From: Candidatus Poribacteria bacterium
GTDB lineage: Bacteria > Poribacteria > WGA-4E > PCPOR2b
Length of the DNA stretch: 64,000 nt
NCBI GenBank assembly: GCA_022826645.1
Contig: JAJDUM010000044.1
Location: forward strand, 1 to 64,000
Reading direction: 5' to 3'
Part shown: positions 967 through 4,890 of the stretch, piece by piece
Layout: the number at the start of each line of letters is the position of its first letter
Position numbering within the stretch: position 1 is the stretch's first letter
The notes under the pieces: model-generated
The model's database searches: none
What the model was told of the DNA's origin: nothing
What the model saw: only the letters and a program-made list of their open reading frames with translations
Position numbers and translations under genes: made by a program

Positions 967-1602
967 ATGAATTCCAAAGATAGGATACTGAATCGAATTA
1001 ATAGCATACTTGATAGACCAGTAAATGAAGGAGAAGCCTATCTCACAGCAATTAACCTATTGGAAAATATTTATGGACCTAACTCGGAGCAACTCCAAGC
1101 AATGAAAACGGTGTATCAGAATATCTACGAGACTAGGCAAGACGAGTTTCGCAGAGACTGGGATGTAAAAGAATTTCTGAAAGGCTCTCTTGATGCGTTA
1201 AAAGCCGAGATTGAAGGAGGTCTCATAGAAAGCATCCAATCTCAGGCTCGGAGCGAAGTTTTGGGAGATTTCCTAACACTCGCTCGTGAATCACACGATG
1301 AAGGACACAAAGAAGTCGCAGCAGTGTTGAGCAGTGCTGCTTTGGAAGATGCGCTGAAACGGTGTGCAAAGGAACGGGGGCTTAATGTTCAAGGCAAAAA
1401 CATGATGACTGTGGTGAATGCGCTAAGATCCAACAATATCATCCTGAAATCACAAGCCAAAACACTAGGAGGATATACAGACTTCCGCAATGACGCACTC
1501 CACGCCGATTGGGATAAAATTGATAGCCCTACCGTCCGCAGCGTTATAGAGTTCACTGATGAATTCCTAGAGGAAAGTAAATATGCGAACTGTCAGGGTT
1601 GA
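967..1602 (+). CDS. HEPN-like protein (first gene of cassette)
   Basis: A 211-residue protein, predicted all-helical. It carries RNDALH at residues 174-179, which fits the Rx4-6H motif (RNxxxH form) of HEPN domains, in a C-terminal half like that of uncharacterised DUF4145-type proteins. Known HEPN proteins with this motif are often RNases in toxin, abortive-infection or CRISPR-linked systems; RNase activity here is inference. The start has GAGG at 957-960 in front of the ATG. The gene overlaps the next one by 20 bases, so the two are probably translated together. The N-terminal 90 residues match nothing I recognise. Confidence 0.7.
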   Translation: MNSKDRILNRINSILDRPVNEGEAYLTAINLLENIYGPNSEQLQAMKTVYQNIYETRQDEFRRDWDVKEFLKGSLDALKAEIEGGLIESIQSQARSEVLGDFLTLARESHDEGHKEVAAVLSSAALEDALKRCAKERGLNVQGKNMMTVVNALRSNNIILKSQAKTLGGYTDFRNDALHADWDKIDSPTVRSVIEFTDEFLEESKYANCQG

Positions 1603-2044
1603 ATGGGAAGGACCGCTCTCTCTTGACGAAGTGAAAGCGTTGGATGACGATGACGACGACTGCGGTTTATACCAAATCTACGGTCGCCACATCATCTTCG
1701 GAGACGATTCTTTGCTCTACGTTGGAATGACAACATGGGCTTTCGAGCGACGATTTTTTAGCGGAGGCGACCCTCACATTGATTGGCTGGAGGAGGAGGA
1801 GGGGGTGTCGGTTTATGTAGGTCGAATTGTGGAGGAAGATTATGAGCATGAGGCGGATTGGAAGCATGTACTCAAGGATGCTGAGGCACTTACAATCTAC
1901 TGGCACTCGCCGCCGTATAATTCGTCCAACATCGAGACATACAACGGTCAGTCGCTCATCATTGAAAATGAGGGTGAACGAGGAGACTTGTGTAAGCGAC
2001 TGTCAACTGATAAATTAAGCACTTATAAACTGATCGGCAATTGA
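1583..2044 (+). CDS. Divergent GIY-YIG nuclease-like protein
   Basis: A 153-residue protein. Residues 28-33 (GLYQIY) and 45-48 (LYVG) fit the two short strands that name the GIY-YIG fold. They are followed by arginines at 56-57 and by a later EALTIYWHSPPYN segment (101-113), which supplies the usual catalytic glutamate and asparagine region. Members of this fold cut DNA. A run of aspartates (21-26) precedes the domain. Its start lies inside the HEPN gene, indicating coupling. The C-terminal 35 residues have no recognised domain. An inactive binding version of the fold is possible. Confidence 0.65.
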   Translation: MRTVRVEWEGPLSLDEVKALDDDDDDCGLYQIYGRHIIFGDDSLLYVGMTTWAFERRFFSGGDPHIDWLEEEEGVSVYVGRIVEEDYEHEADWKHVLKDAEALTIYWHSPPYNSSNIETYNGQSLIIENEGERGDLCKRLSTDKLSTYKLIGN

Positions 2045-2074
2045 TTTTATCCATCTGTTAGAGCGAGGGAGTAT

Positions 2075-2467
2075 ATGGGTTGTGTCTATATCTTGAAGAA
2101 TGAAGCGATGCCGGGTTTAATAAAAATCGGCTATACACGGAAAACGCCTGAAGAACGAGCAGCTGAACTCTATGAGGGTATAACCGGTGTCCCAATGCCC
2201 TTCGAGGTAGCACACGCGTATCCTTGTGAAGAACCAGAGAAACTTGAACGCGAAATCCATAGGAAACTTACATCTCACCGTATTAACCAGTACCGAGAGT
2301 TTTTTAAGTATCCGGCTGACGGTGCGTTCCAAATGCTCCAAGAACTTCACCACATTAGCAGCTCCGCCGGGTGGCGAAAGTGGACATCACATTTTTTGAC
2401 GCGTTTCAGAAGAAAAACCGACGTGAGATCTGATATGGTTGAGGACGAAACACCAACAGCTAAATAG
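2075..2467 (+). CDS. T5orf172/MUG113-type GIY-YIG protein
   Basis: A 130-residue protein beginning with GCVYILKN and continuing with LIKIGYT (residues 15-21), an arginine-containing helix (EERAAELY) and an acidic helix LEREIHRKL (57-65) followed by REFF. This order matches the T5orf172/MUG113 branch of GIY-YIG domains, found in phage proteins and in some defence-associated genes. It is not a close copy of the preceding GIY-YIG gene, so the cassette carries two distinct versions. The C-terminal 40 residues are basic then acidic and unrecognised. The GAGGGAG at about 2065-2071 is a reasonable ribosome binding site. Confidence 0.75.
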   Translation: MGCVYILKNEAMPGLIKIGYTRKTPEERAAELYEGITGVPMPFEVAHAYPCEEPEKLEREIHRKLTSHRINQYREFFKYPADGAFQMLQELHHISSSAGWRKWTSHFLTRFRRKTDVRSDMVEDETPTAK

Positions 2468-2478
2468 GAGAAATATTT

Positions 2479-4014
2479 ATGAACGATAGACATGAAAACG
2501 GAGTGAATTTGAATGTGAACGGCAGCCCTTACCATAGTGCCGACAACGGATTTGCCTGTGCCGCAGCGGGCAGAGGTATCACAGAAGCATTGCAAGAACA
2601 TCTCAATGTTATTGTCCGCGATGAGGAATTAGAAATCGAAAGAAGCGATTCACAGATTCAAAAAGACATAGAAGGCTTGGTTGAGGATAAGGAACGCCTT
2701 GAGCAGCGGAAACTTGATTTGCAAGACAACATCAAGACCTTGACCGAAGAACGCGCTGTGAAAGCGGCAAAGGTTTCCGAATTGACAACAGAATTGGAAG
2801 CGCCCATAAAGGATGATTCGCCTCCGTCAGACCAGCGTGTTGACGAGTTGAAAAGCGCGATTGATGAAAAGACCGCAGCATTAGAGGAAAAGCAGGTCGC
2901 CCGCGTTAAAATCAAAACCAACTTGGAAGCGCCAACGGACGCCGAATTAAAACCGGCTGCTGCTGACAAGGCTCCAGTTTCACGTTTCTCCGCTCTTGAA
3001 AAGGGATTCGCAGGTTTAACCGCCCTTATTCTTGTCGGACTGGTTTGCTACCTCTTTATCTTTTATGCTTCAGTGGGAGATAGAACTTTCACAAAAGGTA
3101 TCGGAACTAATATAGAAAAGCAACATATTATTATTCCGCATGCTTTATCTGAAGCGTGGAAATCCCCCAAAAACTGGTTCGTCCTCATGTTCCCTTTTAT
3201 TTTCCTAACGCTTGCTGCTATCTTCTATTTTTTCGACGAACATTCAGAAAATAAGTATTCCAAGTGGATGCTACTCGGAGCTACCTTTCTTATTGATTTC
3301 ATCATTGCAGTCAAGATCTCAATGCAGATGCACCGGTTTAAGACAGGGGCCGAAAGCTATCCAGTGAACTTTGAAAATGTGGTAGAAATCGTGTCCGTTC
3401 TCCTTTTAGGGTTCGGAGTTTCATTGCTTCTCGGTTATGGCTTGTCTTGGGTTATCAGGGTGTGGAATAGGGGGAAACAACCGCAAGACGAATCTAAACG
3501 ATTAGAAATGGAAAAAAGAAAAGAACAGAACGACCGCTTGGTTCAACTCGCCGCTTTAACTGAAGAGGCGCAGCACTTGCAAAACAGAGTTGATCGTCTG
3601 AAGCAGGAGCGAGAAAAATGCGAAAGGGGTATTGAGGAGGCATCCAAGCAACGGCTAGATGCGCTTATTGAATCTCATAAGCACCCAATTCAGGTGGAAA
3701 TTTCCCGCTTAAACGCCGCAAAAGAACACTTGCAAAACCAGATTAATGAACTTAATGAACAGGTTGAAAGTATTCAGAAGGAAATTAATCGGTGTGAATC
3801 CGAAATCGAAGATCTGTTAAAGGATCAACGCAAAAAAGTCATTGACGTAAAGAAGTTAGAAGCGCAGGCACACGAGTTCGTGACCGGCTGGTGTCGATAT
3901 GTGGCACAGAGTAATACCGTTTTGTCTGCTGATGTCGCATCCCAAGTTAAAGACATTCAGCACTTGGCACATGAAACACTTGAAACATACAAAACATCCC
4001 TCGCAGTAGTTTAA
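2479..4014 (+). CDS. Coiled-coil protein with four central membrane segments
   Basis: A 511-residue protein. A long heptad-like N-terminal region (about 48-105 and 120-148) is followed by four hydrophobic segments at about 177-199, 233-252, 263-280 and 301-326. A second long coiled-coil fills 337-470. There is no signal peptide, so both coiled-coil arms probably face the cytoplasm. I recognise no enzyme motif. The start follows AGGAGA at 2467-2472. It lies 11 bases after the T5orf172-type gene and 12 before the VWA gene. A membrane platform or sensor that gathers the cassette's nuclease-like proteins is a guess from architecture. Confidence 0.7.
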   Translation: MNDRHENGVNLNVNGSPYHSADNGFACAAAGRGITEALQEHLNVIVRDEELEIERSDSQIQKDIEGLVEDKERLEQRKLDLQDNIKTLTEERAVKAAKVSELTTELEAPIKDDSPPSDQRVDELKSAIDEKTAALEEKQVARVKIKTNLEAPTDAELKPAAADKAPVSRFSALEKGFAGLTALILVGLVCYLFIFYASVGDRTFTKGIGTNIEKQHIIIPHALSEAWKSPKNWFVLMFPFIFLTLAAIFYFFDEHSENKYSKWMLLGATFLIDFIIAVKISMQMHRFKTGAESYPVNFENVVEIVSVLLLGFGVSLLLGYGLSWVIRVWNRGKQPQDESKRLEMEKRKEQNDRLVQLAALTEEAQHLQNRVDRLKQEREKCERGIEEASKQRLDALIESHKHPIQVEISRLNAAKEHLQNQINELNEQVESIQKEINRCESEIEDLLKDQRKKVIDVKKLEAQAHEFVTGWCRYVAQSNTVLSADVASQVKDIQHLAHETLETYKTSLAVV

Positions 4015-4026
4015 GGAAGGAGTAAG

Positions 4027-4890
4027 ATGAAGATCTTTGTAGTTGTAGGCATGGTATTTTTGATACTTTTGAGCGCAAACAAGTCCGACGGGCATGAATC
4101 ACCTTCGCTCCATGTGTTAAATGTCATTGTAATCCTTGATACATCAAATCGTGTATCTAGAGATAGACACCCAGATCAGATAGAAAGAGACATTGAGATT
4201 GAGAGAGAGATTGTTACCCGGTTTGAAGCAGTTGTTAAAAAGCATATTGATGACTCGGATGACCTTGCGTATGACGATTCTCTTACTATTGTTGTTCCAG
4301 GTCAGCTGACAGTGCCTCATCCATGGAGGATTGTGCAGAGGCTCAGAATTAAGGATCCCGGAGACTGTAATAATTACAACGGATGCCTTGAGCAGTTGAC
4401 ACAACAGAAAAACGCATTACTTAAAGAAATGTCTCAATTATACGAATTTGTTAATCAGCACCCCCAAACAGGGTCTGACATTTATGAGTGGTTTGAGTTT
4501 GAAGCAAAGGATTACTTTGACGAGGACAAGCGAAACCTTATCATCTGCCTTTCTGATGGCTATCTTAATTTTGACAAAAGCATTGAAGCGAGGCGTGAGG
4601 ATGGCACGCACATGAAAATCAGGGAATTGCGCGATGATCCGAACTGGAAAGAGAGAATTCTCAACGGTGAAGGCTTAAAGCCGATCGGAGAAGATTTTAG
4701 CCCTTACAATGTGAAATTCCTGATGCTCGAAATCGTGCCTCAAAATCAAAAAGACTTTAAGATTATCAAAACATATTGGGATACATGGCTAAATTCAATG
4801 GGAATTGAGGATAGCGACTTCAGGAAAAAGACGGGTCTTCCGATAGAGACGATTAAATCTTTTATTTCTGCCGAGAGCGAACAAGAGTAA
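4027..4890 (+). CDS. Secreted VWA-like protein (last gene of cassette)
   Basis: A 287-residue protein with a hydrophobic N-terminus (residues 3-17) that looks like a signal peptide or anchor. A strand ending in VIVILDTSNRVS (33-44) resembles the metal-binding loop of von Willebrand factor A domains, although the third usual serine is not in its normal place. A later strand, NLIICLSDGYLNF (170-182), fits the second conserved VWA acidic site. VWA domains usually bind partner proteins. AAGGAAGGAG precedes the start at 4013-4022. A periplasmic partner of the preceding membrane protein is plausible but not shown. Confidence 0.65.
   Translation: MKIFVVVGMVFLILLSANKSDGHESPSLHVLNVIVILDTSNRVSRDRHPDQIERDIEIEREIVTRFEAVVKKHIDDSDDLAYDDSLTIVVPGQLTVPHPWRIVQRLRIKDPGDCNNYNGCLEQLTQQKNALLKEMSQLYEFVNQHPQTGSDIYEWFEFEAKDYFDEDKRNLIICLSDGYLNFDKSIEARREDGTHMKIRELRDDPNWKERILNGEGLKPIGEDFSPYNVKFLMLEIVPQNQKDFKIIKTYWDTWLNSMGIEDSDFRKKTGLPIETIKSFISAESEQE

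Follow-up and report, generated by a model that had tools for sequence, protein, structure and literature searches.

What do five tightly packed genes near the start of a Candidatus Poribacteria contig do, and do they act as one? The window analyzed here is a stretch of 64,000 nucleotides (contig JAJDUM010000044.1 of assembly GCA_022826645.1, positions 1-64,000, forward strand). It holds five plus-strand open reading frames (ORFs), at 967-1602, 1583-2044, 2075-2467, 2479-4014, and 4027-4890, and all coordinates below that carry no locus name are window positions on that strand. The end of gene 1 overlaps the start of gene 2 by 20 bases, and the gaps that follow are 30 (genes 2-3), 11 (genes 3-4), and 12 bases (genes 4-5), reproducing the positions and spacing given in an initial annotation. 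That annotation read the five as a single set composed of a HEPN-like protein, two GIY-YIG proteins, a membrane protein, and an exported VWA-like protein. The conserved unit is genes 3-5 (2058-4890), a GIY-YIG nuclease, a coiled-coil core with four transmembrane (TM) segments, and an exported VWA protein. Defense is the function that we infer for it: the unit is probably a membrane-tethered anti-invader nuclease with a periplasmic VWA sensor, cutting DNA at entry.

The boundary of the module is drawn by its closest relative, in genome G002. Among the first 8000 window bases, DNA similarity to G002 (blastn, 79.5% over 2869 columns) covers 2058-4868 only. It begins 17 bases before gene 3, stops within gene 5, and excludes the flanks and genes 1 and 2. 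The ratios of nonsynonymous to synonymous substitution (dN/dS) against G002 are 0.26 for gene 3, 0.22 for gene 4, and 0.47 for gene 5, and the three genes are under purifying selection. Strong relatives of the core (>100 bits) are present in 22 of 84 Poribacteria genomes, in four genera and two families, and the VWA gene is found in the identical 22. The core count omits six genomes with matches of only 19-26 bits, which were taken as coiled-coil noise (28/84 with them, at E 0.001), and the VWA count omits G076 and G030, where only fragments occur (24/84 with them). The gene 5 alignment, used to scan named genome contigs by exact short patterns, returned 22 loci, all in Poribacteria metagenome-assembled genomes. 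With the window, the 22 loci fetched through the VWA gene make 23. The nuclease-core-VWA order is kept in 22 of the 23, including the decayed L115, and the remaining locus, L125, is truncated by a contig end; the five-gene order is seen in the window alone. The initial annotation had named homologues that never occur together as grounds for rejecting a joint system. This is what was found for genes 1 and 2, whereas genes 3-5 co-occur. One further candidate locus, L068 (G044:C307), was rejected as separate because its entire 3083 bases match G002:C116 at 99.97% identity. G002 belongs to another family, and G044:C307 is probably a mis-binned contig. L068 was left out of alignments A1 and A2 and of the locus counts, and G044 retains its own locus on C167.

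Gene 3 (2075-2467, 130 aa) is the nuclease. Both Pfam T5orf172 (E 8.7e-16) and MUG113 match it above cut-off, which bears out one of the two GIY-YIG assignments of the initial annotation. In 14 aligned members, G2, Y5, the KIG motif, R28, E58, H62, and R74-E75 are invariant; the Arg and Glu among these are presumably catalytic. Of 22 loci, 12 encode the nuclease and core as a single ORF, among them the broken copies L115, L122, and L126, and 10 encode them as separate ORFs. In five loci (L111, L116, L120, L122, and L124), the GIY-YIG domain is replaced by a PD-(D/E)xK domain of the HSDR_N type. Four of these replacement domains match Pfam HSDR_N_2 at 36-40 bits, and the fifth scores 24.2 against a cut-off of 25. 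The D...E-x-K residues D41, E56, and K58 and a Q...Y pair are invariant in all five. The decayed L115 has short matches to both nuclease types. The GIY-YIG and PD-(D/E)xK folds are unrelated and take the same place in the module; both are typical of DNA nucleases, and DNA cleavage is their common property. In a tree of 20 cores, well-supported branches force the nuclease type to have changed at least twice, and the tree needs four switches between the two host families among the 17 rows of known family. Because of these changes, the core tree does not follow the hosts.

Gene 4 (2479-4014, 511 aa) encodes the core, which has the layout coiled coil, four TM segments, coiled coil. By hydropathy, the TM segments of the window's core lie at 3007-3063, 3178-3234, 3268-3324, and 3379-3435, and four hydrophobic segments are found in all 17 aligned cores. 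An entry motif, NGxPYxSxxNGF (2518-2553), has N1, G2, S7, G11, and F12 invariant in the 17, and a motif near the C-terminal end, F..GWCR (3877-3897), has F454, G457, W458, and R460 invariant. The predicted model is all-helical (predicted local distance difference test, pLDDT, 77), with long helices on both sides of the membrane segments, as the initial annotation had described. Matches of gene 4 to SMC, JetC, LmuB, PbeC, and DndD are coiled-coil matches; kinship with these proteins was rejected, the matches being taken as low-complexity.

Gene 5 (4027-4890, 287 aa) encodes the exported VWA protein. Its model is confident (pLDDT 87), and the best Foldseek matches are mostly VWA-type: TFIIH p34, the INTS13-INTS14 complex, Ku80, and CMG2. 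Which of these count as VWA is in part our assumption. The residues DTSNR, TGSD, and SDG (4138-4560) resemble a metal-ion-dependent adhesion site (MIDAS). Across 19 members, D151, S176, D177, and G178 are invariant, and D38, S40, and T148 are nearly so. The D-x-S, T, and D elements of what we take to be a MIDAS are present, with Arg in place of the second Ser. The VWA assignment of the initial annotation thus holds at the level of fold, with VWA-type structures ranking high in the PDB comparison, but every E value there is above 1e-3, Pfam gives no VWA match, and the PDB gives no sequence match.

Three chromosomal sites, A, B, and C, are shared between genomes, and the flanking genes scanned there are mostly metabolic or repair genes. 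Site A (L111, L115, L116, and L121) lies between a hydroxyacid dehydrogenase gene and an XPB-like helicase gene, with one extra ORF on the dehydrogenase side in L111, L115, and L121. Between L116 and L121, identity is 80-90% in the flanks, 62% in the fused proteins from residue 130/108 onward, and 72% in gene 5. Before residue 130/108, where the nuclease domains lie, nothing aligns, and the nuclease domain has been swapped in place. Site C (L107 and L122) lies between PNKP and NosD-like genes. There the flanks are 91-98% identical and the modules 27-38%, with different nucleases. Of 43 genomes with the site C flank gene, ten others were fetched; in nine, the flanks are adjacent and module-free, and the tenth (L150) has no PNKP gene there. 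Site B (L109, L112, L113, L118, L119, and L125) adjoins a pyridoxal phosphate (PLP) enzyme gene. Its flanks are 84-96% identical in L113/L118 and 74-91% in L109/L119, with module identity of 28-45%. Across the pairs L107/L122 and L113/L118, module identity is 27-40%. At the window's own site, the TolB-like and TonB neighbors are retained, module-free, in G003, G004, and G005; the other flank is the contig end. Genes 3-5 form a mobile module that turns over at fixed sites.

Synonymous divergence (dS) was compared in five pairs with shared flanks. In L118/L119, the module has dS values of 0.105 and 0.079, and eight flanking genes range from 0.195 to 0.904. In L113/L109, module dS is 0.28-0.51 against flanking values of 1.23, 1.31, 0.51, and 0.47, and in L113/L112, 0.23-0.51 against 0.30-1.22. 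Gene 5 of L116/L115 has a dS of 0.57, the flanks 0.64 and more, and in L116/L121 module and flanks do not differ. These values suggest recent module exchange, which is clear in one pair, indicated in some, and absent in one.

Other multi-gene cassettes occur at site B in sister genomes. Ten further genomes (L158-L167) were fetched for this site; it is empty in L161, and the contents of L158, L159, L160, L162, and L165 were scanned. HSP70 and large proteins of no recognized kind are found in L159:4236-9182, L160:10698-13397, and L165:5736-8297, and these clusters are possibly further conflict cassettes. L158:3188-13020 (genome G024) has Pfam matches to a MotA/ExbB-like coiled-coil protein, OmpA, Tubulin_2, and a large, faintly MreB-like protein; it resembles the Zorya motor pair with unfamiliar partners, and L166 and L167 look like L158 by gene sizes only. 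L162 has a dockerin/NPCBM protein. Separately, a homologous gene, identified as Uma2 (putative restriction endonuclease) in the two copies scanned, is close to the module in six loci, which belong to two of the sites. Its places include L107:4793-5545, L118:3623-4471, and L122:2592-3386, plus four more.

Beyond Poribacteria, a plasmid search with gene 4 found nothing, plasmid searches with core proteins and with one divergent VWA protein gave nothing useful, and the plasmid search with gene 5 matched a single record. Viral contigs scanned with A1, A2, A7, A8, and P0001 gave no match, and phage searches with gene 5 and P0001 gave no useful one. The single plasmid record is pSP2_2 of Runella sp. 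SP2, which encodes a 704-aa protein (L168:6591-8705) that joins core and VWA relatives in one chain. By hhalign, the core aligns with the TM region of this protein over 151 columns (E 7e-19) and the VWA family with its end over 257 columns (E 6e-18), and the F..GW.R form of the C-terminal core motif is retained. With this relative, the spread is shown to reach beyond Poribacteria. The protein has an extra hydrophobic segment between its core and VWA parts. Given an even number of segments ahead of it, this extra segment would place the VWA part across the membrane from the coiled coils, in agreement with the proposed model.

The Runella locus is a type III-B clustered regularly interspaced short palindromic repeats (CRISPR) locus with cmr4, cmr5, cmr6, csx2, and a Csx20-like gene, and with a WYL gene on the opposite strand. 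The gene for the joined protein is directly upstream of the primase-polymerase, cas2, and cas1 genes, with gaps of 30, 20, and 4 bases. No second CRISPR-linked case was found in searches that included phage records and viral contigs and did not cover Bacteroidota genomes. A tentative and rather doubtful extension is that core plus VWA form a portable platform that recognizes the point at which foreign DNA passes the inner membrane and brings a DNA-processing enzyme to it. The enzyme would be an exchangeable DNase (GIY-YIG or PD-(D/E)xK) in Poribacteria; in Runella, in line with primase-polymerase, Cas2, and Cas1, the platform would feed incoming DNA into CRISPR spacer acquisition. If so, the CRISPR-linked relative raises the question of whether membrane location guides spacer choice.

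The proposed mechanism begins with the core in the inner membrane and both coiled coils in the cytoplasm. The core would hold a DNA nuclease near the membrane, through fusion or through a complex with the separate gene product. The periplasmic VWA protein would sense, or be displaced by, the entry machinery of an intruder or a disturbed envelope. This change could be transmitted through the four TM helices so that the nuclease is released or positioned, and the nuclease would then cut the DNA during its entry. The host chromosome would be spared because the nuclease is tethered and kept inactive. In this scheme, the cell topology, the complex formation, the sensing, DNA entry as the trigger, and phage as the target are inferred rather than observed. 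The reading is supported by the co-occurrence of the three genes, their kept order, the nuclease-core fusion, the exchange of two nuclease folds, and the turnover at sites. It is supported as well by the relative in the Runella CRISPR locus and by the precedent of SNIPE for a tethered GIY-YIG nuclease. The initial annotation had proposed a membrane-linked, nucleic-acid-cutting defense or conflict module; this remains the best reading of genes 3-5, with the HEPN protein outside the conserved system.

Several observations weigh against this reading. T5orf172 domains are common elsewhere: 32 of 58 genomes and 110 of 50,697 phage records contain relatives of gene 3. The predicted TM-score (pTM) of the core model is low (0.40), its structural matches are to coiled coils only, and PADLOC scans yield coiled-coil matches alone for the core and nothing for the VWA protein. 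Gene 5 has weak fold matches (best E 1.5e-3, TM-score no higher than ~0.4 by query length), and it lacks one of the five MIDAS residues of what we take to be the classical rule. A clean lipobox is present in 7 of 19 aligned VWA proteins and absent from the other 12, the window's included. At site B, the alternative cassettes match no named defense system, although one has a member with ZorA-type matches. The module is clearly younger than its flanks in L118/L119 alone, with mixed or slight differences in three pairs and none in L116/L121. Lastly, some copies are damaged: L115, L122, and L126 are broken, the G028 core has a stop, and three matches of gene 5 and the remnant in G030 are flagged for one.

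The same anatomy could serve a suicide device, in which the VWA protein and core sense a breach of the envelope and a freed nuclease destroys the cell's own DNA, as in abortive infection. In its favor, SNIPE nuclease freed of its TM segment is toxic to the host (PMC13190303, in excerpt). The nuclease is chained to the membrane core in 12 of 22 loci, however, which would keep its cutting at the membrane, and we consider this alternative unlikely.

A general gate whose targets are not phages but plasmids, conjugative elements, or free DNA would equally combine a membrane nuclease with turnover between genomes, and the anatomy has no phage-specific feature. We find this quite unlikely, although nothing speaks directly against it. 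The nearest known analogue, SNIPE, lets plasmid transformation proceed (PMC13190303, in excerpt).

It is distinctly improbable that genes 3-5 form an envelope device without a role in defense, such as a nutritional DNA-uptake nuclease or a surface-stress signaling complex. The mostly metabolic and repair genes in the flanks would suit this, VWA proteins have many envelope functions, and Poribacteria are a host group known from sponges. The patchy presence, the exchange of nucleases, the replacement between near-identical flanks, and the CRISPR-locus relative all argue against it. The weakest alternative, that all five genes are the true functional unit, has close packing and a 20-base overlap in a single genome in its favor and is very improbable, being largely refuted as a conserved set by similarity that begins 17 bases before gene 3, by the lack of gene 1 or gene 2 relatives beside the other 22 loci, and by the different neighbors of gene 2 elsewhere.

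Genes 1 and 2 are thus outside the conserved module. Gene 1 (967-1602) encodes a HEPN-like protein. The RNxxxH motif claimed for it is present as RNDALH, and R-N-x-A-x-H is retained in four weak relatives; its DUF4145 and HepT-like matches are below the Pfam cut-offs, as are its NCBIfam matches. A first scan of genome contigs with gene 1 gave nothing useful. Gene 2 (1583-2044) is a separate GIY-YIG-like protein, assigned by the motifs GLYQIYG, LLYVGMT, and E..YN. It has no Pfam match itself, and PF01541 is matched by two of nine family members (best E 8.7e-5), so that the second GIY-YIG assignment stands by motif. This family has multiple copies within the genus, in sister genomes (L092, L093, L094, L096, L097, L099, and L101), some of them truncated. 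Among the scanned copies, an HSDR_N protein lies ahead in L094, and seryl-tRNA synthetase adjoins in L096 and L101. Comparing the profile of the gene 2 family with that of the gene 3 family led nowhere, and PDB sequence searches with genes 1, 2, 3, and 5 and the HSDR_N domain found nothing below E 0.03. In the surroundings fetched for the other 22 loci, no relative of either gene was detected. In the window's genome, a local functional link of genes 1 and 2 to genes 3-5 is possible.

How does the module relate to known systems? No description of the nuclease-core-VWA set came up in searches of open-licence PMC papers. The PADLOC model closest to gene 3 is PDC-S57, a candidate system with T5orf172 (E 2.5e-31). 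The match is limited to the nuclease region (model positions 6-101 of 212), and neither the core nor the VWA protein matches it.

Proteins with vWA and transmembrane parts near CRISPR loci have been reported as associations, the UAS sets (PMC10910872, in excerpt). Compared by description only, the Runella relative fits this account, and the Runella link may overlap with those associations as far as the excerpt describes them. The Poribacteria modules differ in carrying nucleases.

Defenses that act at DNA entry (SNIPE, Zorya, and Kiwa) are recent and few, and the three are grouped as membrane-localized defenses in a review (PMC12904381, in excerpt). Like Zorya as outlined there, in a text that also cites work on the modularity of Zorya, the module would combine a membrane part, a periplasmic part, and a DNA-cutting effector. 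Unlike Zorya, genes 3-5 have no MotA/ExbB or OmpA match. Gene 4 has one ZorA match at E 0.095, which covers the tail half of that model and is the sole one among the best 25 of 30 matches.

The closest likeness is to SNIPE (PD-lambda-1), whose tethered GIY-YIG nuclease cleaves the DNA of phages as they inject it (PMC13190303, in excerpt). As in SNIPE, the GIY-YIG nuclease of the module would be anchored in the inner membrane, and the PADLOC PD-Lambda-1 models match gene 3 with their nuclease end (best E 2.6e-9). The differences are in architecture. DUF4041 (PF13250) has no match in genes 3-5 at E <= 1. The nuclease of the module is N-terminal or a separate ORF with the TM segments downstream, whereas SNIPE has an N-terminal membrane region and its nuclease near the C terminus of the same chain. 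SNIPE homologues are predicted to have one (59%), two (7%), or no TM segments (PMC13190303, in excerpt), whereas the module has four, together with a VWA partner and a nuclease exchangeable with the HSDR_N type. DUF4041 proteins of the SNIPE type occur separately in eight of the 84 genomes (G013, G023, G042, G054, G056, G071, G074, and G078), and none was found in the window's genome. The module would work like SNIPE but, judged by DUF4041 and architecture, is not a member of its family. If the entry-nuclease reading is true, the module is an independent design in which the membrane and sensor parts are constant and the DNA cutter is exchanged, and domain swaps could reveal which part sets specificity.

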